From positions 1 to 64,000 of the forward strand of contig CANBWK010000003.1 in NCBI GenBank assembly GCA_947373105.1: a stretch of 64,000 nt of DNA, in the 5' to 3' direction. Position numbers and translations under genes: made by a program. This DNA comes from Comamonadaceae bacterium. Its GTDB lineage: Bacteria; Pseudomonadota; Gammaproteobacteria; Burkholderiales; Burkholderiaceae_C. The stretch's first letter is position 1; each line of letters opens with the position of its first letter. This document shows positions 9,621 through 53,728 of the stretch, one piece after another. The notes below the pieces were generated by a model. The model had not been told where the DNA came from. It searched no databases and saw nothing but the letters and a program-made list of their open reading frames with translations.

Positions 9621-10208
9621 TTAGACGAAGTGATTTGAAATTTCAGGATCAAATTGGCCATCTATCAGCACAAATAAAATTCTGCACATTGCACCAGATC
9701 GATTGGCCCAAGCGTGATTCGTCCCACGCTCTACCAAAAAGTCACCCGTCTTCATGAGGACCTCCTCATTGTCCAGTAGCAATGTAATTTCGCCTTCCAA
9801 AATTAATGCATAGTCCACCGATTGCGTCCGATGCATAAATGGGTGTTTGGCTTTTCCTGTTTGATTAGTAGAGGCGGTGTGTGTACCTAAGGCACTCCAG
9901 GCAATTTTGGTATCTTGTGCATCTATTTTGTCAAGCCAATCACCTTCGGGGCCAAATTCAATAATTCGCACGACGGATCCGTTTTTTGGCGGCTCAAGCT
10001 TTAAAGGCCGTGAGGTGGGATCGGGCTCATTGCCCACGAAAGCAGGCGTTTGATCTGTCATCCACAACTGAGTGAGGTGGTACCCTACTCTCTTAGGATT
10101 TGTATGGACTGAGGGCGCAAGTTGGTCCTCAGTCACAATAGAACGTCCCTGTTCATCGTGACCCGTCACGATCCTGCGAATGTATGTTCTTGGGCTTTTG
10201 TCGCTCAT
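9621..10208 (-). CDS. cupin-domain protein
   Basis: MHRTQSVDYALILEGEITLLLDNEEVLMKTGDFLVERGTNHAWANRSG; ATGA overlap with the upstream Bug gene if the start is MSDKSPRTY. Confidence 0.85.
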   Translation of the reverse strand: MSDKSPRTYIRRIVTGHDEQGRSIVTEDQLAPSVHTNPKRVGYHLTQLWMTDQTPAFVGNEPDPTSRPLKLEPPKNGSVVRIIEFGPEGDWLDKIDAQDTKIAWSALGTHTASTNQTGKAKHPFMHRTQSVDYALILEGEITLLLDNEEVLMKTGDFLVERGTNHAWANRSGAMCRILFVLIDGQFDPEISNHFV

Positions 10209-11179
10209 TGCGGTGACACTCCTGTTTCCTTCACAATCTTTCCCCACTTTGTGAGTTCAAGTTTTAAATAGTCATTGAAATACTGTGGACTTCCCGTCTG
10301 AGCCTCGAATCCAGCAGCATTCAATTTATCGCGAAAATCGGGTTGCCGTACTGCTTCATTGATGATGCCATTCAATCGATTAAGAACATCATTCGGTAAT
10401 TTCGTAGGCGCAAACAAGCCGACCCACGTATAGTCTTCAAAGTCAGAGAACCCAGATTCGGAAACAGTAGGAACGTTTGGCAAGGTATCTAGTCTCTTCA
10501 GGCTTGTCACTGCCAAGGCTTTTAATTTTCCGCTTTTAATCAATGGCACAGCCGGTGGCAATGCAACACTTGCTAACTGCACTTGGTTTGCCATGGTTGC
10601 ATTTAAAGCGGGTGCTGCACCTTGAAATGGTATGTGAACTGCATCAAGTTTACCTAGAACACGCAACACATGGTCACCCGTTAAATGTGGTGTACTGCCA
10701 ATGCCTGCAGAGCCATAAGAAACATTTTTTCCTTTGAAATTGCGAATAAATTCTTTCAAATCAGCAGAGGTTTCACTCGGATGGCTAACGATGATATTGG
10801 GACTAATGGCAATTAAACCAATGTGTGAAAAATCCTTGAGTGCGTCATAGCCTGGCTCTTTGTAAAGAGTTTGATTGACAGCCAAAGAACTGGTTGTGAC
10901 AAGCAACACATACCCATCGGGCGATTCCTTTGCAACAAATCGAGCTGCAATATTGCCACCAGCTCCAGCTCGATTTTCAACAATCACTGATTGACCTAAT
11001 TTGTCTTGCATAGCTTGCGCTAGGAGTCTGGCAATGATGTCTGCAGGACCACCAGGTGCAAATGCAACCACCAACTTAACTGGTTTAGTGGGCCATGCTT
11101 GAGTCTGCCCCCAAGATAATGGGGCAAAAAAAATGAATATGAAAAAAAGAAAAACTCTTTTACGACTGATAGTGATCAC
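10205..11179 (-). CDS. Bug/TctC-family substrate-binding protein
   Basis: WPTKPVKLVVAFAPGGPADIIARLLAQAMQDKLGQSVIVENRAGAGG. Confidence 0.93.
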   Translation of the reverse strand: MITISRKRVFLFFIFIFFAPLSWGQTQAWPTKPVKLVVAFAPGGPADIIARLLAQAMQDKLGQSVIVENRAGAGGNIAARFVAKESPDGYVLLVTTSSLAVNQTLYKEPGYDALKDFSHIGLIAISPNIIVSHPSETSADLKEFIRNFKGKNVSYGSAGIGSTPHLTGDHVLRVLGKLDAVHIPFQGAAPALNATMANQVQLASVALPPAVPLIKSGKLKALAVTSLKRLDTLPNVPTVSESGFSDFEDYTWVGLFAPTKLPNDVLNRLNGIINEAVRQPDFRDKLNAAGFEAQTGSPQYFNDYLKLELTKWGKIVKETGVSPQ

Positions 11180-13824: not shown

Positions 13825-14724
13825 TTAAGCCTTCACCAATTTACCCAGCCCTGTAATTGCCTCTTCAAAGTTATAAATTATTCGCACGCCCTTAGGTGCT
13901 CGCTTGACCTGCAACAAACCAGCTCCGCCTGCCCAGATCTGCGTACTCTGAGGTAGCAAACGCCTCAAATGCGCCAGCGTTGGCACAACATCGCGCAGGG
14001 GATACGAAAAACTGAATGTCAGCACAACAACATCGGCTTTGCAATCTGCGGCTGCCAACCTCAAACTGTTCAATGGCATATCGGTTCCAACGTTCACGAT
14101 GTAAGCACCCGCCTCAGCCATCACGGCCTCAACCATAAGCAAACCAAGCTGATGGCGCTCACCGGGCGGCAAAGCAAATAAGAAAACTGGAAAAGCACTT
14201 TTGGGTTTCGATTTGAGTGTTTCCGCAATCAAATAACGCTCGATCATTGAGGAACAAAGGTGTTCGTGATAAACATCAATTTCACCGCCAGCCCAGGCGT
14301 CTCCAATACCAATCATCAGTGGCGTGATCGTATTTTGGACAAAGTCCAACATCGTGCGTTTAGCACGTTGTTTGAGAAGCAAGGCTTTAAATGCCTCGCT
14401 ATCGGGGTGACCAAGTAGGTTTATCAAAGCATTGGTTGAGTCTGAGCGTTCCAACTCATGTTTGATTAGGTTCAGGTCCGCGGTAAGTCTTAAATTTTCG
14501 GCTGCTGTCTGAGGAACGACTTGACCAGGACGAAGCCCTGCTTCTAACAGGCGTTTGATTACCAAGAGCCTATCGACGGATTCGCTCGAATAAATGGCCT
14601 TGCCATTTACATCATATTGAGCAGGTGGAAAGCCGAATCGTTGGCGCCATTTTCGGAGTTGATCAATGCCAAAGCCCGTTCTAAGTTCGATTTCCGACTG
14701 TAAGACATAGGCATTTTCTGACAT
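13825..14724 (-). CDS. MerR-family regulator with C-terminal cobalamin-binding domain (CarH/LitR-like)
   Basis: N-terminal MerR wHTH (TGFGIDQLRKWRQRFGFP), W-x9-EH (WAGGEIDVYHEH), ExHxxG (ERHQLG), VGTDMPL. Confidence 0.83.
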   Translation of the reverse strand: MSENAYVLQSEIELRTGFGIDQLRKWRQRFGFPPAQYDVNGKAIYSSESVDRLLVIKRLLEAGLRPGQVVPQTAAENLRLTADLNLIKHELERSDSTNALINLLGHPDSEAFKALLLKQRAKRTMLDFVQNTITPLMIGIGDAWAGGEIDVYHEHLCSSMIERYLIAETLKSKPKSAFPVFLFALPPGERHQLGLLMVEAVMAEAGAYIVNVGTDMPLNSLRLAAADCKADVVVLTFSFSYPLRDVVPTLAHLRRLLPQSTQIWAGGAGLLQVKRAPKGVRIIYNFEEAITGLGKLVKA

Positions 14725-14754
14725 ATCCAGTCAGGGTAACAAAAAAAGAAACAT

Positions 14755-14774
14755 TTGTCCCCCCTGTTTTGTCC
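14755..14774. promoter_or_regulatory. candidate operator: TTGTCC direct repeat, 14-bp period
   Basis: TTGTCCcccctgttTTGTCC in the divergent regulator intergenic region. Confidence 0.35.
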
Positions 14775-14928
14775 TAGGTAAAAGTCTTAAATTATTGAGA
14801 CGCACAAGGAGAAGTAGATTTTCTTTTCTAAATCAGTCACTCAATAACAACGTCGCAATTTCACCAGAAAAATACAGCACCCAAGAGTCGATCAGTCAGT
14901 GTAAATTTTATTAAAGGCGGATCAGGCC

Positions 14929-15756
14929 ATGTTTGCAAAAAATTCAATGGACTTAAAATACAAATTTTTCGAAGACCATGGGGCTGTCAACTCCGATTAC
15001 CAATCCTCTATATTGTCAATCGTCGAATCACAGATCATTCCTCGTTTGCTGATAGCTGAGCGGGTTAAAAAACGGCATCTGAGCTTGGTCCCTTCATCCC
15101 CTGCATTGCCAACTCAAAAACAAATAGCGCTATTTGTAGATCTTTGCATATCAAAAGATCAGAAAGTTTCGCAAGCCTTTGTTGATGATTTTATTAAGAC
15201 AGGCTTGCACAAAGAAGACATCCTCTTAGACCTGATTGCCCCTGCGGCTCGGTACTTAGGATCGCAATGGGATGAAGACCATATGGATTTTTCTCAAGTG
15301 AATTTGGGATTTGTTCGACTTCATGCAATTACCAATGAGTTTAGATTTGCCTTCAAAGAGCGTCTGTCTGTCAAAGGTAAAGTCAATAAAGTGATGATCG
15401 CTACTGCACCTGGGTCTTTGCATATGCTTGGCGCAACTATCGTGGCTGATTTTTTTCGCCAAAAAGGATGGCAAGTTGAGGTTGCAATTTCATCTTCCTC
15501 GCATGAACTGGTTCAGACCGTCAGCAGTGAATGGTTTGATGTGATCGGATTGTCCATCAGCATTGAGCAACAACTTACGAATTTAGCAGATTTAATAGCG
15601 CAATTTAAATGCTCATCTCTCAATCCGCGCTTAGCGGTTTTGTTAGGTGGTCCAATTTTCGCAACAAAAGTATGGCGCCCTATTGACTTTGGTGCAGATG
15701 GCATTTGTGTAGATGCAAAACATGCCGTTGGCTTAGCTGAATCACTTCTACCTTAA
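14929..15756 (+). CDS. stand-alone B12-binding-domain protein (AerR/PpaA-like)
   Basis: LGSQWDEDHMDFSQVNLGFVRLHAI followed by a B12-type domain (SLHMLGATIVADFFRQKGWQVEVAISSS). Confidence 0.7.
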   Translation: MFAKNSMDLKYKFFEDHGAVNSDYQSSILSIVESQIIPRLLIAERVKKRHLSLVPSSPALPTQKQIALFVDLCISKDQKVSQAFVDDFIKTGLHKEDILLDLIAPAARYLGSQWDEDHMDFSQVNLGFVRLHAITNEFRFAFKERLSVKGKVNKVMIATAPGSLHMLGATIVADFFRQKGWQVEVAISSSSHELVQTVSSEWFDVIGLSISIEQQLTNLADLIAQFKCSSLNPRLAVLLGGPIFATKVWRPIDFGADGICVDAKHAVGLAESLLP

Positions 15757-17196: not shown

Positions 17197-18174
17197 ATGA
17201 AATTTCCTCGGCGATCATTGCTGCATATGGCCTTGGGGGCATCTGCTTTGTCGGCAATAAGCCGCATAGGCTGGGCGCAAAACTATCCTACACGGCCAGC
17301 TAAAATTTTGGTTGGTTTTGCTGCTGGTGGCGCCACCGACATCCAGGCGCGCTTGATGGGCCAATGGCTTTCGGAACGTCTTGGGCAACCCTACGTCATT
17401 GAAAACCGCGCAGGCGCAAGCGGCAACATTGCGACTGACGCAGTCGCTAAAGCCTCTCCTGATGGTTACACGCTCCTGCAAATCGTTACCCCTCATGCCA
17501 TCAATGCCGCCCTGTTTACCAATCTCAATTTTGACTTTATCAGGGACATAGCGCCAGTCATATGCGCTGCGCGACTGGCCTATGTCGTCGTGGTTCACCC
17601 TTCATTCCCGGCGAAGACGATGCAAGAGTTCATTGCATATGCCAGAGCCAATCCGGGCAAAATCAATTATGGTTCGGCTGGCCAAGGGACTCCGCAGAAC
17701 TTTGCTTGCGAACTTTTTAAGATGATGACCGGACTGAATCTGGTTCATGTGCCCTATAAAGGTGGCGCCCCTGCTATTGCAGATCTGATCGCTGGCCATG
17801 TACAGGTGGTTTTCGCTCCCGTGTCGGAATCCATTCAACAAATTAAAGCGGGAAAACTGCGCGCTCTTGCTGCCACGACAACGTCCCGTTTGAACGTATT
17901 GCCTGATGTGCCAACAGTGGGAGAGTTCGTTCCCGGCTATGAGGCCAGTGGTTTTGCTGGAATCGGAGTTCCAAAAAATACCCCCGTTGAAATTATCAAT
18001 ATGCTCAACAAAGAACTTAACTTGGGGCTTGCTGACAGTAAGGTTCAAGCTCGAATTACTGACCTTGGCGGAACCGTGCTGGGCGGTACGCCCGCTGAAT
18101 TTGGGGCCATCCTCTCCGAGGCCACAGACAAGTGGGCAAAGGTGATTAAGTTTGCTGGGATCAAGGTGGAATAG
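17197..18174 (+). CDS. Bug/TctC-family substrate-binding protein
   Basis: FPRRSLLHMALG leader (Tat-like), YPTRPAKILVGFAAGGATDIQARLMGQWLSERLGQPYVIENRAGASG. Confidence 0.93.
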   Translation: MKFPRRSLLHMALGASALSAISRIGWAQNYPTRPAKILVGFAAGGATDIQARLMGQWLSERLGQPYVIENRAGASGNIATDAVAKASPDGYTLLQIVTPHAINAALFTNLNFDFIRDIAPVICAARLAYVVVVHPSFPAKTMQEFIAYARANPGKINYGSAGQGTPQNFACELFKMMTGLNLVHVPYKGGAPAIADLIAGHVQVVFAPVSESIQQIKAGKLRALAATTTSRLNVLPDVPTVGEFVPGYEASGFAGIGVPKNTPVEIINMLNKELNLGLADSKVQARITDLGGTVLGGTPAEFGAILSEATDKWAKVIKFAGIKVE

Positions 18175-18175
18175 G

Positions 18176-19180
18176 TCAATCGACTTTAGCGCCTGAACGC
18201 CTCACGACCTCGGACAACCTTGGAATGTCCTTCGCCACCAATGCGGCCAACTCTTCAGGTTTGCCTCCGCCAGGCTCAAGCCCCATTTCAGCGAGGCGTT
18301 TGACGTTATCGGGTTGCTTCAAGATATCAGCCACATCACGCTGCAAGCGGTTGACTATGGCTGAAGGCGTGCCTGCTGGCGCAAACATGGCCTGCCAAGA
18401 ACTTAATTCAAAACCCTCAAGACCCGCTTCTTGAAGTGTGGGCAATTCAGGTGCGGCCTTGGAACGCTTGGCGGAAGTGACGGCCAGTCCAATCAATTTT
18501 TTACCTGCGATTTGCGGAATCGCCGTGTTGCTGTTTTCAAAACTAATCTGAATCGTACTGGCCAACAAATCCGCCATCATGGGGCCACTGCCTCGGTAGG
18601 GAACATGCTGCATTTGCGTACCTGTTGCCAGTTTGAACATCTCTCCAGAAATATGCTGTGATGTGCCATTGCCCGCTGAACCAAAAGAGTATTTATCAGG
18701 ATTGGCTTTGAGCAAGGCGATCAGCTCGGGCACACTTTTGACGTTCAAAGAGGGATGAACTACCAACACATTGGGCAGTGCGGCCAACAAGGTAATCGGT
18801 GCAAAATCCTTGATCGGGTCGTAGGCCAACTTGGGATAGAGAGACACATTCAAAGCATGTGAGCTGATCGTTCCACCACCCAGCGTATAGCCATCAGGCT
18901 TAGATTTAGCCAATTCTGCAGACCCCACAGATCCACCCTGCCCTGCCTTATTGTCCACCACCACCGATTGATTCAGTGACTTAGACAAACCTTGCGCCAC
19001 CATCCGACCCAACATATCGGTCGCACCTCCAGGGGCAAAGGGTACGATGTAGCGAAGGGGTTTGTTTGGCCAATCCTTAAGCGCATCTTTGGATGCATCC
19101 TGCGCCAAGGCGGATGGAGTGTGGGTTAGTGCGAGAGCAAACAGTGAGCAGAGTAACAAATGAATGGGGCGCATGAGCAT
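18176..19180 (-). CDS. Bug/TctC-family substrate-binding protein
   Basis: WPNKPLRYIVPFAPGGATDMLGRMVAQGLSKSLNQSVVVDNKAGQGG. Confidence 0.93.
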   Translation of the reverse strand: MLMRPIHLLLCSLFALALTHTPSALAQDASKDALKDWPNKPLRYIVPFAPGGATDMLGRMVAQGLSKSLNQSVVVDNKAGQGGSVGSAELAKSKPDGYTLGGGTISSHALNVSLYPKLAYDPIKDFAPITLLAALPNVLVVHPSLNVKSVPELIALLKANPDKYSFGSAGNGTSQHISGEMFKLATGTQMQHVPYRGSGPMMADLLASTIQISFENSNTAIPQIAGKKLIGLAVTSAKRSKAAPELPTLQEAGLEGFELSSWQAMFAPAGTPSAIVNRLQRDVADILKQPDNVKRLAEMGLEPGGGKPEELAALVAKDIPRLSEVVRRSGAKVD

Positions 19181-32451: not shown

Positions 32452-33435
32452 ATGACAAAACTCTTTAAGACTTCACAGCAATGTTTTGCCACACTCTTTT
32501 TCGGATTCCTATTTTGCGCCGCCCAAGCGCAGGGCTTTGCTGACAAACCAGTACGCGTTATTACCCCCTTTGGGGCTGGCAATACGCTTGACGCCGCGCT
32601 CCGAGTGATGGGTGAAAAATTCAAGGAAAGTACGGGGCAATCCTTAATTATAGAAAACAAAGCGGGTGGCTCTGGATTCATCGCCGCCCAGGCTGCAGCC
32701 AGTGCTGCGCCAGATGGCTACACACTTCTTCTCGGTGGAACAGGCTTGATGACGATCAATCCACACATCTTTTCAAAAGTCCCCTATGACGTGGAAAAAA
32801 GCTACAAACCTGTGAGTAATTTCCTCGGCTCAGCTTTGGTATTTGCGGTGCATGCATCGGTCCCAGCAGAGAACCTGTCTGAGTTCATTGCCCTGACAAA
32901 AGCAAATCCGGGCAAGGGCACTTTCGCCTCCTACACGGCTGGTAACGCCTCACACTTTTCCGGGGTCATTCTGAATAAACGTGCTGGGATCGATTTACTG
33001 CACATCCCTTTTAATGGCACACCAGCCGCTACGACAAACCTTCTTAGCGGGCAGGTGCAGTCAGCATTTTTACCTTTGCTGTCGATCAAACAGCACATGG
33101 ATTCAGGGAAAGTTAAGGTTCTCGCTATTACTGGGGACGTGCGCTCCCCTCTTGCCCCCACCGTACCTACATTCAAAGAACTAGGCTACCCAGACCTGAA
33201 TTTGTATGTCTGGGCGGCACTTTTTGCGCCAGCAGGTACGCCGGATACAGTGGTTCAAAAGCTGTCTCTAGAGATCAATAAAGCACTCAAAACGACTGAG
33301 GTGATTGAGAAATTCAAGGCTATGGATTTCACACCTCTTCCATCAAGCCCCGAAGAATTGTCCACATTTGTGCGTAATGATTCAAGACGGTGGGCGGAGG
33401 CAGTCAAACTGTCCGGTTTTAAAGCCTCAGAATAG
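32452..33435 (+). CDS. Bug/TctC-family substrate-binding protein
   Basis: FADKPVRVITPFGAGNTLDAALRVMGEKFKESTGQSLIIENKAGGSG. Confidence 0.93.
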   Translation: MTKLFKTSQQCFATLFFGFLFCAAQAQGFADKPVRVITPFGAGNTLDAALRVMGEKFKESTGQSLIIENKAGGSGFIAAQAAASAAPDGYTLLLGGTGLMTINPHIFSKVPYDVEKSYKPVSNFLGSALVFAVHASVPAENLSEFIALTKANPGKGTFASYTAGNASHFSGVILNKRAGIDLLHIPFNGTPAATTNLLSGQVQSAFLPLLSIKQHMDSGKVKVLAITGDVRSPLAPTVPTFKELGYPDLNLYVWAALFAPAGTPDTVVQKLSLEINKALKTTEVIEKFKAMDFTPLPSSPEELSTFVRNDSRRWAEAVKLSGFKASE

Positions 33436-35132: not shown

Positions 35133-36152
35133 CTAATTCAAACCCTTGATGGCCTCGGCAAACAACGCGTTCTGGTCCTTGAGATACTGCTTGTAATCTT
35201 CGGGATTCAGTAACTTGATTTCTGCACCAAATAATTTCAAATTCCCTGAAATTTGTGTGTTGTATTTCTCAACTGTTTTCTGAGCAGCCACATAAATTTG
35301 ATCAATCACTTCTTTGGGTGTTCCTTTGGGGGCAGAGATACCGTAGTAGGCTGGGCCAGCGATCTTGTAGCCTAACTCTCTCAGGGTTGGAACATCCGGC
35401 AAGGACTTCAATCTCTGGAGACTGAAAACAGCCAGAGGTCTTAAAGCACCGGATTCCACTTGAGGCTGCACTGCACCAACGGCCGCGGATGACAATTGAA
35501 CGTGTCCGCCGAGCAAAGAAGTAATGGCGGGCCCACTACCCTTTTCCGGAATATGGGTCCATTTGATACCTGCTTCTTTGCTGAAAATTTCGGCTAACAA
35601 ATGGGTAATGCCCATTGCACCAGAGGTCGTGTAGTTGATTTTTTCAGGATTCAACTTCGAATAATCGACCAATTCCTTGAGCGTTTTCCAGGGTGCATTC
35701 TTTGCAACCACGAGCATCATTCCGCCTTCAGAAAGGCTCGCAACGGGTTCAAAAGAGTCCAACGAGTACTTGATTTCTTTATTGGCCAGTGGCACCACTA
35801 CAATGGACCCAGGCGACGTACCGACAAGCGTTGTTCCATCGGGTTTACTGAGGGCAACAGAACCAGCGCCTATGCCACCACCGGCACCCGGTTTAAAGTT
35901 CAACACCACAGACTGCCCAAGAAATTCTCCCATTCGATCGGCAAAAGGCCTGATCATGTTGTCCGTATCTCCTGGCGCAAATGGGATCACTATTTGTATG
36001 GGCTTCGTAGGAAATTTTTCGGCAGTCAGCGCTAAGGGGCTTATCAGCATCAAAGGTAAGAATGCACACAAGGCTAACGATCCCGGTGAATGTTTTAGCC
36101 ATTTTTTCGGACTGCAAAGATCACGAAAATTATCGATAAAGACTTGATTCAT
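35133..36152 (-). CDS. Bug/TctC-family substrate-binding protein
   Basis: FPTKPIQIVIPFAPGDTDNMIRPFADRMGEFLGQSVVLNFKPGAGGG. Confidence 0.9.
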   Translation of the reverse strand: MNQVFIDNFRDLCSPKKWLKHSPGSLALCAFLPLMLISPLALTAEKFPTKPIQIVIPFAPGDTDNMIRPFADRMGEFLGQSVVLNFKPGAGGGIGAGSVALSKPDGTTLVGTSPGSIVVVPLANKEIKYSLDSFEPVASLSEGGMMLVVAKNAPWKTLKELVDYSKLNPEKINYTTSGAMGITHLLAEIFSKEAGIKWTHIPEKGSGPAITSLLGGHVQLSSAAVGAVQPQVESGALRPLAVFSLQRLKSLPDVPTLRELGYKIAGPAYYGISAPKGTPKEVIDQIYVAAQKTVEKYNTQISGNLKLFGAEIKLLNPEDYKQYLKDQNALFAEAIKGLN

Positions 36153-36999: not shown

Positions 37000-37794
37000 T
37001 TAAGGCGTAGCGGAGGTCAAACCACCATCCACCACAATACTCTGAGCGGTGATGTAACGACTTTCGTCACTGGCCAAGAAAACCACTGCATTGGCAATAT
37101 CCCAGGCATCTCCCATGTAACCTGCCGGCACTTGCTTATGACGATGTGCAACAAACGCCTCGAACTGCCCGCCTGCATATTTGTCAGCCAAACGTTTAAC
37201 CAATGGGGTAAAAACCAAACCGGGCACGACACAATTCAAACGGATGCCCTTGTTTGCGTAGAGCACCGCCGTGGTTTTCGTCAACTGCATCAAGGCCGCC
37301 TTAGCAGCTGCATAAGCGACCTGCGGTTTACCCACGTAGCGCAAACCCGCAACCGAGGAGATACTGATGACCGATCCGTATCCTTGCTTTTCCATAACCG
37401 GAAGTACCGACTTCATCGTCAGGAAAGCCGTCTTCACGTTCAAATCCATTTGTCCATCCCAAGTGTCTTCGCTCATCTCAACAGGGCCGCCAGGCTCGGA
37501 TTGCCCAACGTTATTGACCAAAATGTCAATACGACCAAATTTTTCTAGGCAGGCATCCACCATGGATTGAACTTCTTGTGCTTGGGTCACGTCTGCCGTG
37601 GTGACATAGGCTGTACCGCCTTCATCTTGGATAATTTTTTGCGTGACTTTGGCAGCATCAAGATCACGATCAACCCCAAAAATGGTTGCTCCCTGGCGCG
37701 CGAGTAAAACCGTAATCGCCTTGCCATTGCCCCAACCTTCGCCTTTTGTACCGCAGCCAGTGACCAAAGCAACTTTTCCGTCGAGTCTGAACAC
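37000..37794 (-). CDS. short-chain dehydrogenase/reductase (paralogue of the previous)
   Basis: VALVTGCGTKGEGWGNGKAITVLLARQG, NNVGQ, YAAAKAALMQLTK. Confidence 0.92.
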   Translation of the reverse strand: MFRLDGKVALVTGCGTKGEGWGNGKAITVLLARQGATIFGVDRDLDAAKVTQKIIQDEGGTAYVTTADVTQAQEVQSMVDACLEKFGRIDILVNNVGQSEPGGPVEMSEDTWDGQMDLNVKTAFLTMKSVLPVMEKQGYGSVISISSVAGLRYVGKPQVAYAAAKAALMQLTKTTAVLYANKGIRLNCVVPGLVFTPLVKRLADKYAGGQFEAFVAHRHKQVPAGYMGDAWDIANAVVFLASDESRYITAQSIVVDGGLTSATP

Positions 37795-37945
37795 AATATC
37801 TCCTTTAAGGTCAGTGCCACAGCTATTGTCGACCTGAGATGGTTTTTGTGCAAGCAGCTACCGTGATGGCAGGACCACATGCATAACAACTGCAGAGTTT
37901 TTAATCTAGATCAAAGGGAACAAATAGATGGGGGTTATTCTTAAG

Positions 37946-37957
37946 TCCGTGCACGGA
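37946..37957. promoter_or_regulatory. 12-bp perfect palindrome upstream of the ncRNA candidate
   Basis: TCCGTGCACGGA. Confidence 0.4.
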
Positions 37958-38134
37958 GTTGAGGATAAATCCCGACCACCGACACAAATTTGGGGGGGCT
38001 TGGAAACAAGCCGAAGCTTGGCCTCCGAGGAGGCCGACTAAGATGAGGACGAAGCTCAGACCGATTTGGAATTGAAAAACCCAATTGGGGTTCCTCACAC
38101 AGCCCGCCATTTCGTTTGAAATGGCGGGCTTCTT
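37958..38134 (+). ncRNA. candidate structured small RNA ending at an intrinsic terminator
   Basis: Stem-loops GGCTTG-GAAA-CAAGCC (37997-38012), GGCCTC-CGAG-GAGGCC (38020-38035), TGAGGA...TCCTCA (38044-38097), then the terminator at 38102-38134; no ORF; divergent intergenic region. The 5' end is not determined. Confidence 0.55.
38102..38134 (+). terminator. strong intrinsic terminator
   Basis: GCCCGCCATTTC-GTTT-GAAATGGCGGGC-TTCTT (12 bp perfect). Confidence 0.85.
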
Positions 38135-38198
38135 CATTGCACTAAGCCACCTGTGCAGCAAAAAGGCTGAGGCTAGCTCATAATGGACCTCTTGCCCT

Positions 38199-38957
38199 TT
38201 GGAGATATTCAGCATGATTGAAGAAAACATTGATATCCAAACCGCCAATGGTTCAATGAACACATTCGTCGTCTTTCCAGAGGAAGATGGCCCTCATCCC
38301 ATCGTCTTTTTTTACATGGACGCACCCGGAAAACGTGAAGAGTTACACGACATGGCCAGAAGGCTTGCCAGCGTCGGTTATTTTGTTGTTTTACCCAACC
38401 TCTATTACCGACGTAGTCGCGACTTTTATCTCAAGGAACGTACACCTGAGGCTCTAGAAGTCATGTTCAGCCATATGGGTTCGTTAAACGCCAGCACCAC
38501 GCAAATAGACACGCAAGCTATGCTCAATTTTGTTGATCGCCATGCTATGGCAGATCAGTCGCGTATTGGTGCAGTCGGCTATTGCATGAGCGGCCCTTTC
38601 GTCATGTGGGCTGGCGCACAATTTCAAGACAGGTTCCAATGCATTGCCTCCATTCATGGGGCCAACATGGCAAGTGACGAGCCAGACTCGCCCCATCTCA
38701 TGGCGTCCAAATTGAAATGCGAGTGCTACTTTGCATGTGCAGAAATTGACAAATGGGCACCGCCTGCAGATATCCAAAAATTGGAAACTTCACTTTTGGC
38801 GTCCAAAGTGAATCACCGAATCGAATGGTATCCCCAAGTGGAGCATGGCTTTGTTTTTCCCAAACGAGAAGGTATTTACAACGCCCCTGCAGCTGAACGT
38901 CATTGGGAGCGCTTATTCAGTCTGTTTGACCGAAATTTGAACCGTAATCAAGGGTAA
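38199..38957 (+). CDS. dienelactone hydrolase family protein
   Basis: IVFFYMDAPGKREELHDMARRLASVGYFVVLPNLYYR; IGAVGYCMSGPFVMWAGAQ; VEHGFVFP. Confidence 0.9.
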   Translation: MEIFSMIEENIDIQTANGSMNTFVVFPEEDGPHPIVFFYMDAPGKREELHDMARRLASVGYFVVLPNLYYRRSRDFYLKERTPEALEVMFSHMGSLNASTTQIDTQAMLNFVDRHAMADQSRIGAVGYCMSGPFVMWAGAQFQDRFQCIASIHGANMASDEPDSPHLMASKLKCECYFACAEIDKWAPPADIQKLETSLLASKVNHRIEWYPQVEHGFVFPKREGIYNAPAAERHWERLFSLFDRNLNRNQG

Positions 38958-47459: not shown

Positions 47460-48464
47460 TTATGCGTCCATTTTGATGCCAGCATCTTTGATCACAGGCG
47501 CCCAACGGGCGCGATCGGCCAACACCTTTTTATGAAATTCACCCGGGGTTCCACCCACAGGCACCAGGCCCATCTTGTGCAAAACCTCAACAACAGAAGC
47601 TGACGCAAGGGCCTCCGTCACGATAGCCGCATAATCGTTAGCAATGCTGGCAGGCGTTCCGGCTTTGGCATACAAACCAAAAGAGGTTACAGCCACGTAG
47701 CCGGGATAACCCAACTCCGTGAGTGTCGGTATTTCGGGGGCAAGAGGAGACCTTTTTTCACTGGCGTGGGCCAAAATTTTTAATTTGCCAGAGCGATGAC
47801 TTTCCAAATAATCCGGAAGAATAGATCCACTCGCCGGTATCTGATTGCCCAACAGATCTGCCAGCAAAGGAGAGCCTCCTCGATAAGGGACGGAGATCAA
47901 AGGCAGGTTTAATTGCTTACCAAGTTGATGAATGACCAGTGCCCCCATACTGACGGGACTCGGCACACCGATAGAGCCGCGCTTGGGATCTCTCCTCACA
48001 GAATCAAAATATTCAGATAAGTTGTTGACACCCGACAAAGGGTTGACGGTAAATGCCATCGGTGCCGAAGCACACTCCACAACGGGCGCCAATTCCTTCT
48101 CGTAGTCAAAAGTGGGTTTGGTTGCAAACAACGGCAATAGTGATACTGCCGAATTCGGTGCCATCATCAGGTATGAGCCATCGGGGTCAAAATTTCGCAG
48201 ATGCTGAATAGCGACAAGCCCGCCCGCACCGGATTTAGACTCCACGACAACCGTTCGCCCTAACTTGGCACGCATACGATCACCCAGAAGGCGCGCCAGC
48301 GTATCGGAGGACGTGCCAGGTGGTACGGTGAGAATAATTGTGAGGGGTTTGCTGCTTTGCCCCAGAACGATAGCAGGCGCCGCCAACGCAGTGGAAGCCA
48401 TCCCGACAGAAGCCATAAAACGTCGTTTACTTAGATCGAACATGCCGTATCTCCTGATCACCAT
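47460..48464 (-). CDS. Bug/TctC-family substrate-binding protein, Tat-like leader
   Basis: SKRRFMASVGMASTALAAPAIVLGQ; LTIILTVPPGTSSDTLARLLGDRMRAKLGRTVVVESKSGAGG. Confidence 0.9.
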   Translation of the reverse strand: MVIRRYGMFDLSKRRFMASVGMASTALAAPAIVLGQSSKPLTIILTVPPGTSSDTLARLLGDRMRAKLGRTVVVESKSGAGGLVAIQHLRNFDPDGSYLMMAPNSAVSLLPLFATKPTFDYEKELAPVVECASAPMAFTVNPLSGVNNLSEYFDSVRRDPKRGSIGVPSPVSMGALVIHQLGKQLNLPLISVPYRGGSPLLADLLGNQIPASGSILPDYLESHRSGKLKILAHASEKRSPLAPEIPTLTELGYPGYVAVTSFGLYAKAGTPASIANDYAAIVTEALASASVVEVLHKMGLVPVGGTPGEFHKKVLADRARWAPVIKDAGIKMDA

Positions 48465-48579
48465 GAAGCCGAATGGCTCTGTGGTTCTGGTTGAAATTAA
48501 AAAACGTTTTCACATTTACTGCAACTGAAAAGAAAAAGGCCACCGTTAAACTCGGGTTAACTGCTAAAGGACAATTGCA

Positions 48580-49476
48580 ATGAACCTTAGACAAATGGAA
48601 GTCTTCAGATCCGTCATGTTCTCCGGTGGGGTCAATAGCGCCGCCGAGTTACTGCATGTATCACCTCCGGCGATCAGTAAGGTACTTAGCCAAGCAGCAA
48701 AAACAAGTGGGCTTATTCTGTTTGAACGGGTCAAAGGGCGCTTGATTCCAACGCCAGAGGCTCATCAGCTTTATGAGGAAATCAATCGACTTTGGACAGG
48801 TGTAGAACGTGTTCGCGATTTGAACAACGAACTTGCAAGCGGTACCCATGCCACATTACGCCTCGTCTGCTCAGCAAGCCTAGCTCCCTACCTTGTTTCA
48901 CGAACTGTTGCGAAACTGTACGAAAAATTTCCCCGTTTGCAATGCCGCGTGCAAGTTGTGTCTCCCGACATGATTAACACTACTTTGCTGGATCGAACTA
49001 CCCACCTTGGCATCGCACTGGCGCCACACGAACACCCCAATTTAGCAACCATCAAAAGTTACCAATGTGGATTAGCCTGTGTGGTGCGTAGTGATCATAA
49101 GCTCGCCAGGAAAGCAATCATCAGCCCCAAGGATCTTATAGGTGAGCGGATTATCTATTCCCCTGAATCCACGCAATTTGGTCAGACGCTGCGGCGAGCC
49201 TTTGGCGAATTTGGATCCAAGATGCATAAAGATTTTGAATGCACAAGCTCAACAACCGCATGCTGGTTTGCGCAAGCAGGCGTGGGGGTTGCAGTCGTTG
49301 ACCAACTCGCCATTGCAGGAGGACTGTTAGCTGGACTGGAAGTGCGGCCCTTTAAGTCTTTGGAAAAGTTGCAAGTCCGGTTAATTCGAAACCAGTTCAG
49401 GCCCATGTCTGTCGTGGAGTCGGCTTTCGTCCATTATTTCGACATGATTTGGTCTGAAGCTTTGAATTTTGAATGA
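48580..49476 (+). CDS. LysR-family transcriptional regulator
   Basis: MNLRQMEVFRSVMFSGGVNSAAELLHVSPPAISKVLSQAAKTSGLILFERVKGRLIPT. Confidence 0.93.
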   Translation: MNLRQMEVFRSVMFSGGVNSAAELLHVSPPAISKVLSQAAKTSGLILFERVKGRLIPTPEAHQLYEEINRLWTGVERVRDLNNELASGTHATLRLVCSASLAPYLVSRTVAKLYEKFPRLQCRVQVVSPDMINTTLLDRTTHLGIALAPHEHPNLATIKSYQCGLACVVRSDHKLARKAIISPKDLIGERIIYSPESTQFGQTLRRAFGEFGSKMHKDFECTSSTTACWFAQAGVGVAVVDQLAIAGGLLAGLEVRPFKSLEKLQVRLIRNQFRPMSVVESAFVHYFDMIWSEALNFE

Positions 49477-49544
49477 TTTCAAAAACAGATAGCCGCAGAA
49501 AGATATATATTGACCCCCTGTCCATCCCATTGAAAGTTCTGACC

Positions 49545-50519
49545 ATGGCTATTTCTCGCCGGATTTTCATGACTGCAACAGCGACTTGCGTAGCCACACC
49601 GTCATGGAGTCAAAGTACGTCCAACTTTCCCAGCCGCCCTGTCAAGATTGTTCCTTTTGGAACTGCAGGTGGGCCAATTGATACCTTGGCACGCATCTAT
49701 GGTGATAAATTACAGCAGCGCTGGGGGCAGTCTTTGGTGATTGAGACCCGACCTGGCGCCAGCGGCATCATTGCCGCCGATTACGTGGCAAAGGCCCCTG
49801 CTGACGGCTACACGGTGATGATGACCATGCCCCTGACACACGTTAATCAAGCCATTTTGCAAGCCAAACTGCCTTACGATCCCGTTAAAAGCTTCACACC
49901 CCTAAGCATGCTCGCCGTTGGTGGTCCCATGTTGGTGGCGCGAGCCAATGCGCCTTACAACAATCTCAAAGAGTTTGTGGAGTTTGCCAAGAAAAAAGGC
50001 AGCCTCACCTATGGCACTTGGGGCAATGGATCGTCAGCACATTTATTCGGTGAACTTTTAGCCCAACAAACTGGGACCAAAATGATCCACGCCGCCTACA
50101 AAGCAGAAGCCGCAGCGCACAGCGACTTGTTTGGAGATTTGCTTGATTTTGCGTGGTCCAACCCTTCTACGGCCCGCGTCCAAGTGCAAGGCGGGAAAAT
50201 GAAGGTTCTAGCTGTCGCAGGAACACGCAGAGTTTCAACGATGCCCAATGTCCCGACATTTGCAGAGCAAGGCTTCAAAGGCTTTGATGTGGACAGCTGG
50301 ATTGGCATGTACGCGCCTGCTAATTTGCCCCCTGAATTGCAAAACACTTGGGTCACCGCCTTGCGCGAAATCACGGCCATGCCTGACATTCAAGCGCGCT
50401 TGGTAAGTTATGGCTTTGAGCCTTTAGGCAACACACCTGCCCAGTTCATGGAGGTATTCAAAGCCGACTTCCCACGGGTTTCCGAATTGATCAAAGCCGC
50501 CGGTGTGACCGCGCCTTAA
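49545..50519 (+). CDS. Bug/TctC-family substrate-binding protein, Tat-like leader
   Basis: AISRRIFMTATATCVATPSWSQ; FPSRPVKIVPFGTAGGPIDTLARIYGDKLQQRWGQSLVIETRPGASG. Confidence 0.92.
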   Translation: MAISRRIFMTATATCVATPSWSQSTSNFPSRPVKIVPFGTAGGPIDTLARIYGDKLQQRWGQSLVIETRPGASGIIAADYVAKAPADGYTVMMTMPLTHVNQAILQAKLPYDPVKSFTPLSMLAVGGPMLVARANAPYNNLKEFVEFAKKKGSLTYGTWGNGSSAHLFGELLAQQTGTKMIHAAYKAEAAAHSDLFGDLLDFAWSNPSTARVQVQGGKMKVLAVAGTRRVSTMPNVPTFAEQGFKGFDVDSWIGMYAPANLPPELQNTWVTALREITAMPDIQARLVSYGFEPLGNTPAQFMEVFKADFPRVSELIKAAGVTAP

Positions 50520-52756: not shown

Positions 52757-53728
52757 ATGAATAAACGGCATATCTTTGCAATCTTGGCCTTGCTCTGCAT
52801 GTCAGCTGGCACTTCGGCGCAAACCAGCAGTAACTACCCGAATCAACCTATTCGGCTGATGGTACCGTGGCCCGCAGGCGGCGGCGTTGACACCACTGCC
52901 CGCATGATTGCTGAGCCATTGGGCAAACGCTTGGGTCAATCCATCGTCATTGAGAACAAGGGCGGCGCAGGCGGGAACATCGGGACCGAAATCGCAGCAC
53001 GCGCAAAACCAGATGGCTACAACTTACTGATGGGCTCCATCACACCCAATGCGATCAATGTGCACCTTTACCCCAAGTTGCCCTTCGATTTGATCAAGGA
53101 CTTCACGCCCATCACTTTCATTTCATCTTTGCCCATATTTTTGGTTGTTCCCGCCAATTCACCGATCAAATCGGTGGCAGATTTACTGACATTCGCTAAG
53201 GCCAACCCTGGCAAGGTGACTTACGGCTCAGCAGGCGTCGGATCCTCTCAACATTTGGCGGCGGTGCAATTTATGGGCGCCACAAAAATAGACATGTTGC
53301 ACGTGCCCTATAAAGGCACCGCACCAGCAGAGGCCGACTTGATGGCCGGTCACATTTCAGTGATGTTCGACACCGCCACAGCCATCCCCTTCATCAACGG
53401 GGGCAAACTCAAGGCCTTGGGCGTGATGTCCAAAAAACGCAACCCTGCACTGCCCAATGTACCGACGTTGGATGAAGCTGGCTTAAACGATCTGTATGCG
53501 TCATCCTGGTACGGACTCATGGGGCCAGCAGGAATGCCTGCAGGCATTGTGAACAAACTCAATGCGGAATTGAATGATGCGCTGCATTCCCCTGAAGTAC
53601 AAAAACGCATGTACGACTTGGGTGCAGAAATCGGCGGCGGAACACCCGCAGAATTTGCCAACTTCATTCAATCTGAAATTGCTCGTTATGCCGACATCGT
53701 CAAACGGTCTGGCGCTAAATTCGAGTAA
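52757..53728 (+). CDS. Bug/TctC-family substrate-binding protein
   Basis: YPNQPIRLMVPWPAGGGVDTTARMIAEPLGKRLGQSIVIENKGGAGG. Confidence 0.94.
   Translation: MNKRHIFAILALLCMSAGTSAQTSSNYPNQPIRLMVPWPAGGGVDTTARMIAEPLGKRLGQSIVIENKGGAGGNIGTEIAARAKPDGYNLLMGSITPNAINVHLYPKLPFDLIKDFTPITFISSLPIFLVVPANSPIKSVADLLTFAKANPGKVTYGSAGVGSSQHLAAVQFMGATKIDMLHVPYKGTAPAEADLMAGHISVMFDTATAIPFINGGKLKALGVMSKKRNPALPNVPTLDEAGLNDLYASSWYGLMGPAGMPAGIVNKLNAELNDALHSPEVQKRMYDLGAEIGGGTPAEFANFIQSEIARYADIVKRSGAKFE

Follow-up and report, generated by a model that had tools for sequence, protein, structure and literature searches.

The window, the whole stretch of 64,000 nucleotides that was analyzed, contains a predicted small RNA of ~189 nt on the plus strand (37948–38136). 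Comparison with homologous sequences places it in an RNA family that has a covarying fold (hairpins P1–P4 and a pseudoknot), a promoter box at a fixed spacing and a terminator. Transcription, control by oxygen and action in trans are features that we infer for the family. It is likely that this is a new and uncatalogued family within one Burkholderiales family, the members of which are CRP/FNR-activated, trans-acting, free-standing, non-coding structured small RNAs of ~185–190 nt. The initial annotation had proposed an independent small RNA that ends at a terminator of its own, and the homologues, the covariation, the conserved promoter and the conserved terminator all support this.

The hairpins and terminator are present at 37949–38130, where they are part of a complete transcription unit. 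Two hairpins reported initially, GGCTTG-GAAA-CAAGCC and GGCCTC-CGAG-GAGGCC, are found exactly, at 37997–38012 and 38020–38035, respectively. The plus-strand terminator, originally placed at 38102–38134 with 12 bp, is also there: its stem has 13 pairs (AGCCCGCCATTTC-gttt-GAAATGGCGGGCT, 38101–38130) and is followed by TTCTTC. The TGAGGA...TCCTCA arm required more care, as TCCTCA lies at 38092–38097 but TGAGGA occurs twice, at 37960 and 38044, and comparative data identify the copy at 38044 as the conserved partner. The span first given (37958–38134) was also adjusted, since its 5′ edge is ~10 nt inside the predicted transcript. Region 37940–38140 has a folding energy of −80.7 kcal/mol compared to −59.3 ± 4.8 for shuffled sequences (z = −4.5), and is more stable than all 200 shuffles. 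Of 3192 segments of equal length (64 kb, 20-nt steps), only nine contain a set of three distinct perfect stems of ≥6 bp, and two of these nine are the RNA locus. As the minus strand of the locus gives an equally good folding score, folding energy alone cannot fix the strand. Instead, the strand is fixed as plus by the U-run, the promoter and the homologues.

Besides the window copy, 11 strong homologues and a weak one were found in other Burkholderiales. A covariance model built from the window sequence alone (R1) and used to search 300 genomes of the family gave one locus, L079 (38 bits, E = 7e-9), which scores far above the next match and has a gene context unrelated to that of the window. 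L079 is an intergenic locus flanked by FtsH and CBS-domain genes and carries a terminator of its own. Within the genus of L079, blastn with this locus led to L087, and a model from these two sequences and the window (R2) retrieved seven further members, L091–L097, in seven more genomes with 31–80 bits. R2 scores the window copy at 138.7 bits, a value to be read with the model having been built partly from the window. In a later model (R3), the P3 pairs are about two columns off and some power is lost; it recovers all ten members and adds L119, a second copy in genome G139, and the weak L128 (genome G513, 34 bits). In addition, blastn with L093 identified a copy on a plasmid of Variovorax boronicumulans EBFNA2 (NZ_CP138497.1, ~523055–523245; R2 score, 43 bits), where it sits in a gap left unannotated within a stress island. 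G139 (L119, L117) and G513 (L128, L126) each carry two copies of the RNA, and in G139 the gene right after either copy has the same BON-type start.

There was no convincing match in 398 genomes of the order outside the Burkholderiales family. Similarly, blastn of the window region against 101 relatives and the 398 genomes of the order returned only chance or terminator-only matches, and blastn with the window against plasmids and phages gave no match. R2 matches below 26 bits (L098–L107), as well as L118, were rejected as they resemble coding DNA without the conserved core. Between 7 and 150 first-look candidates were scored per genome, so that prevalences are lower bounds and, because of this limited number, absence is not proof.

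The 12 strong members share an RNA of ~185 nt with P1–P4, the pseudoknot and a GC-rich terminator. In the window, P1 is a predicted 5′ hairpin with internal loops (37949–37985) that overlaps a competing fold; L079, L087 and L091 each fold with an equivalent hairpin. P2 (GGCUUG-GAAA-CAAGCC, 37997–38012), for which L079 has GCUUGGCAACAAGC, is followed by P3 (UUGGCCUC-CGAG-GAGGCCGA, 38018–38037), a covarying helix. P4 is a long hairpin (38042–38099) and is divided into two helices, both of which covary: a basal helix in which UGAGGA (38044–38049) pairs with UCCUCA (38092–38097), and an upper helix beginning with 38061–38065 paired to 38084–38088. The intrinsic terminator, P5 (38101–38136), is a GC-rich hairpin with a T-run. 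It lies directly 3′ of P4 in all members, window copy included, and keeps this position across the homologues. Single sequences taken from the predicted start mostly fold on their own into the 5′ hairpin, P2, P3, P4 and the terminator. A long hairpin at 37930–37973 seen in single-sequence folds was dropped, as it largely overlies the conserved promoter.

Covariation among homologues, a check that the initial annotation had set, was found. With an alignment fitted to the model, RNAalifold gives 33 pairs, 26 of which have double changes. In a MAFFT alignment, which is not structure-fitted, 89.6% of cells are paired for the named structure and pseudoknot, compared to 36–52% when the partners are slid. 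Here, with the P3 pairs at their correct columns, double changes are present in 16 of 27 pairs, while shuffled alignments give 8.3 ± 1.6 and none of 500 reaches 16. A chance cluster of hairpins is refuted by the covariation and the promoter conservation across genera.

The pseudoknot is formed by UGAGG before P2 and CCUCA inside P4, and was absent from every search model. It covaries, as UGAGG/CCUCA is replaced by UGGGG/CCCCA in L091 and by CGGGG/CCCCG in L096. In the window, the 5′ strand is UGGGG (37991–37995) and the 3′ strand, placed inside P4 by comparative data, is CUCA (38055–38058). The window copy retains P2, P3, P4 and four of the five pseudoknot pairs, and nothing in its sequence suggests decay. 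A short alternative hairpin, GGAUG/CAUCC (alignment columns 60–74; window 38041–38055), has partial support: it is conserved in most members, with 84% of its cells paired, and would exclude the base of P4. The two structures may possibly constitute a conformational switch.

Because the pseudoknot covaries, something more than a simple antisense RNA is suggested. One alternative is that the RNA is mainly a folded object, acting as a protein-binding scaffold or decoy or as a catalyst with no antisense pairing, in which the pseudoknot packs P2, P3 and P4 compactly. We regard this as a serious possibility, although not as the likely answer: the pseudoknot and four covarying helices speak for it, as does the position of most conserved letters in or beside helices, but neither a protein nor a reaction is pointed to. 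In particular, binding to CsrA is unlikely since there are too few GGA motifs, with 39 seen and 50.4 expected from dinucleotide shuffles, and a CsrA/RsmA decoy was rejected. Separately, the 16-mer CCGATTTGGAATTGAA (38061–38076) has an exact match on the antisense strand that lies, in many congeners, a short way before the start of a conserved gene. It was set aside as an antisense target, as roughly one match of this kind per genome is the BLAST expectation and the own-genome matches listed did not include it; the match is probably due to chance.

A CRP/FNR-type (FixK-type) palindrome, TTAATCTAGATCAA, precedes the RNA on the plus strand (37901–37914). Its consensus in the 12 strong members is a 14-bp sequence, TTG(A/C)GC-N2-G(A/C)TCAA. 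TTG-N8-CAA is found at the same place in 11 of the 12 and the window has TTA-N8-CAA, so that the window copy fits the promoter layout of the family with one half-site letter off (TTA for TTG). The frequency of TTGN8CAA in these loci is ~0.0007 per position and therefore, its recurrence at one position in 11 of the 12 members is not chance. The palindrome is followed by a −10-like hexamer, TATTCT (37936–37941), which begins 35 nt after the palindrome does and places the predicted transcription start at ~37948. This spacing is 35–36 nt in all 12 strong members: it is 35 nt in 8 of the first 10, with the others shifted by one nt, and 36 nt in members with CACACT and in the Variovorax copy.

Class II activators bind about 41 nt before the transcription start, and in the 12 members the centre of the palindrome precedes the predicted start by ~41 nt, which is the placement for class II activation. 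The ends of the palindrome fit the published FixK2 box, TTGA/C and T/GCAA (PMC9104804). A sigma70-consensus scan found no promoter at the locus, which is expected if an activator is needed. A CRP-family palindrome alone does not mean oxygen, as other CRP/FNR-family regulators read similar boxes. In the proposed mechanism, an oxygen-responsive activator of the CRP/FNR family (FNR, ANR or FixK-like) would bind ~41 nt before the start and, in a class II arrangement, would switch the RNA on when oxygen falls. Control may differ or be weak in the window copy because its left half-site is TTA and its neighbours, an SDR gene and a hydrolase gene, are not stress genes.

These neighbours are divergent, as described initially, with the SDR gene at 37000–37794 (minus strand) and the dienelactone hydrolase gene at 38214–38957 (plus strand). 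Two congeners, G125 and G047, keep the pair, and the G125 proteins are 95% and 97% identical to those of the window. Their intergenic region is only ~130 bp long, with the CATAAT box of the hydrolase gene likewise at its end. Alignment with both shows an extra segment of ~290 bp in the window (37866–38153, edges uncertain by ~10 bp) that has no counterpart at this empty site, and what is missing is just the promoter, the RNA and the terminator. It is probable from this comparison that the whole unit was inserted between the two genes in the lineage of the window. A deletion in an ancestor shared by G125 and G047 is the less likely alternative: insertion is simpler because 90 further genomes of the genus gave no match to the RNA (7 to 150 candidates scored per genome), G125 and G047 giving no match with 150 candidates scored in each.

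The density of palindromes and the insertion relative to two congeners would also fit a palindromic repeat element (REP or MITE). Such an element, or a chance grouping of hairpins, is extremely unlikely given that there are no copies elsewhere in the window's own genome, that no terminal repeats were seen, and that covariation and promoter conservation extend across genera.

The initial annotation also raised an attenuated leader of the hydrolase gene. An attenuated or otherwise regulatory leader would fit the position of the terminator, which lies upstream of that gene on the same strand. This proposal did not hold up and is very unlikely. A conserved −10-like box of the hydrolase gene, CATAAT (38179–38184, plus strand), comes after the terminator and is kept before the gene in orthologous loci without the RNA (L032, L033, L034 and L063). 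Congeners have the hydrolase gene but not the RNA. Furthermore, homologous RNAs precede different and unrelated genes, often on the opposite strand, and the conserved fold has no helix overlapping the terminator stem. The favoured small RNA would not be expected to regulate the SDR or hydrolase gene in cis. A further alternative, that the transcript is the mRNA of a small protein with its AUG at 38043–38045, draws on the presence of GAUGAAG at the same place in most members. It is highly improbable, however, as the AUG is ACG in L079 and L097 and GUG in L093, and the length differences between members are not multiples of three.

Most homologues adjoin Usp, CBS, BON, Hsp20, FtsH, LonC or HPF genes, named by Pfam or from deposited annotation. 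These neighbours include FtsH, CBS and Usp (L108); an HPF-like S30AE protein, a Cpn60 fragment and CBS (L109); a Crp/Fnr regulator, CBS, Usp and a sensor kinase (L111); BON, CBS, Hsp20 and Cpn60 (L113); phosphoribosyltransferases and LonC (L114); Usp (L092); several Usp together with Hsp20 and BON (L120); and a cation P-type ATPase (L110). At L112 and L115, Pfam revealed no clear stress gene among the neighbours. Judged by annotation, the neighbours shared by most homologues are gene types of low-oxygen or stress islands. Similar types (universal stress, BON domain) are found in the lxa locus of Burkholderia cenocepacia (BCAM0275–BCAM0323), which is induced by low oxygen, and the accessible parts of the lxa literature report no such RNA (PMC6127331, PMC3759415).

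The initial annotation had suggested cmscan against Rfam, and no family in Rfam 15 was matched by any locus scanned, at either gathering or permissive thresholds. The betaproteobacterial toxic small RNA (RF02278), named there as one candidate, gave no match up to E = 10 in 37700–38400, and nine homologue loci, scanned up to E = 1, did not match it either. RF02278 is likewise a small RNA of betaproteobacteria and takes the form of a double hairpin in Burkholderia cenocepacia (PMC5688073), whereas the new family has five stems and a pseudoknot. The best sub-threshold match was Bp2_287 (RF02424), with 20.7 bits against a gathering threshold of 70, and this match rests on a generic GCCCGC terminator only. 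FnrS of Escherichia coli, which is FNR-activated, is likewise an intergenic small RNA, and the present one has a predicted CRP/FNR-family activator and an intrinsic terminator. Unlike FnrS, the new RNA is longer, pseudoknotted and from a different clade, and cmscan gave no FnrS match at the thresholds used. No such RNA family was described in the literature covered, which was mostly outside subscription journals. The family and fold appear to be new, while the kind, a regulated small RNA, is known; the comparison here with Burkholderiales-1, a motif put forward as a structured RNA of this order and carrying no Rfam number, is by name alone (PMC2864571).

In the favoured reading, the RNA would end at P5 and act in trans in a low-oxygen or stress-survival response, through either base-pairing to mRNAs or contact with a protein. 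Against it, neither a target nor an Hfq site or seed was found for the family, and the conserved residues are mostly paired, which is unusual for a simple antisense RNA. These paired residues and the pseudoknot make us lean towards a folded, possibly protein-binding RNA. More tentatively, the family may be a new class of pseudoknotted, non-antisense RNA for low-oxygen survival that binds or modifies a stress-island protein or a ribosome component, and whose promoter, RNA and terminator form a self-contained cassette that moves between sites in the genome.

Most of what is known about oxygen-regulated small RNAs comes from gamma-proteobacteria, and a structured RNA family with its own predicted regulator site is now seen in Burkholderiales. 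It recurs in Usp/CBS/BON/Hsp20 islands, a kind linked to oxygen-free survival in Burkholderia. The unit escapes both gene annotation, as in the Variovorax gap, and Rfam, and the predicted inducer makes the RNA directly testable.

Elsewhere in the window, about nine genes read by eye as TctC/Bug-type solute-binding-like are present, an unusually high number for 64 kb (regions 175–1161, 10205–11179, 17197–19180, 32452–33435, 35133–36152, 47460–50519 and 52757–53728). Also by eye, two divergent genes at 13825–15756 resemble B12-binding regulators, one of them of the MerR type.
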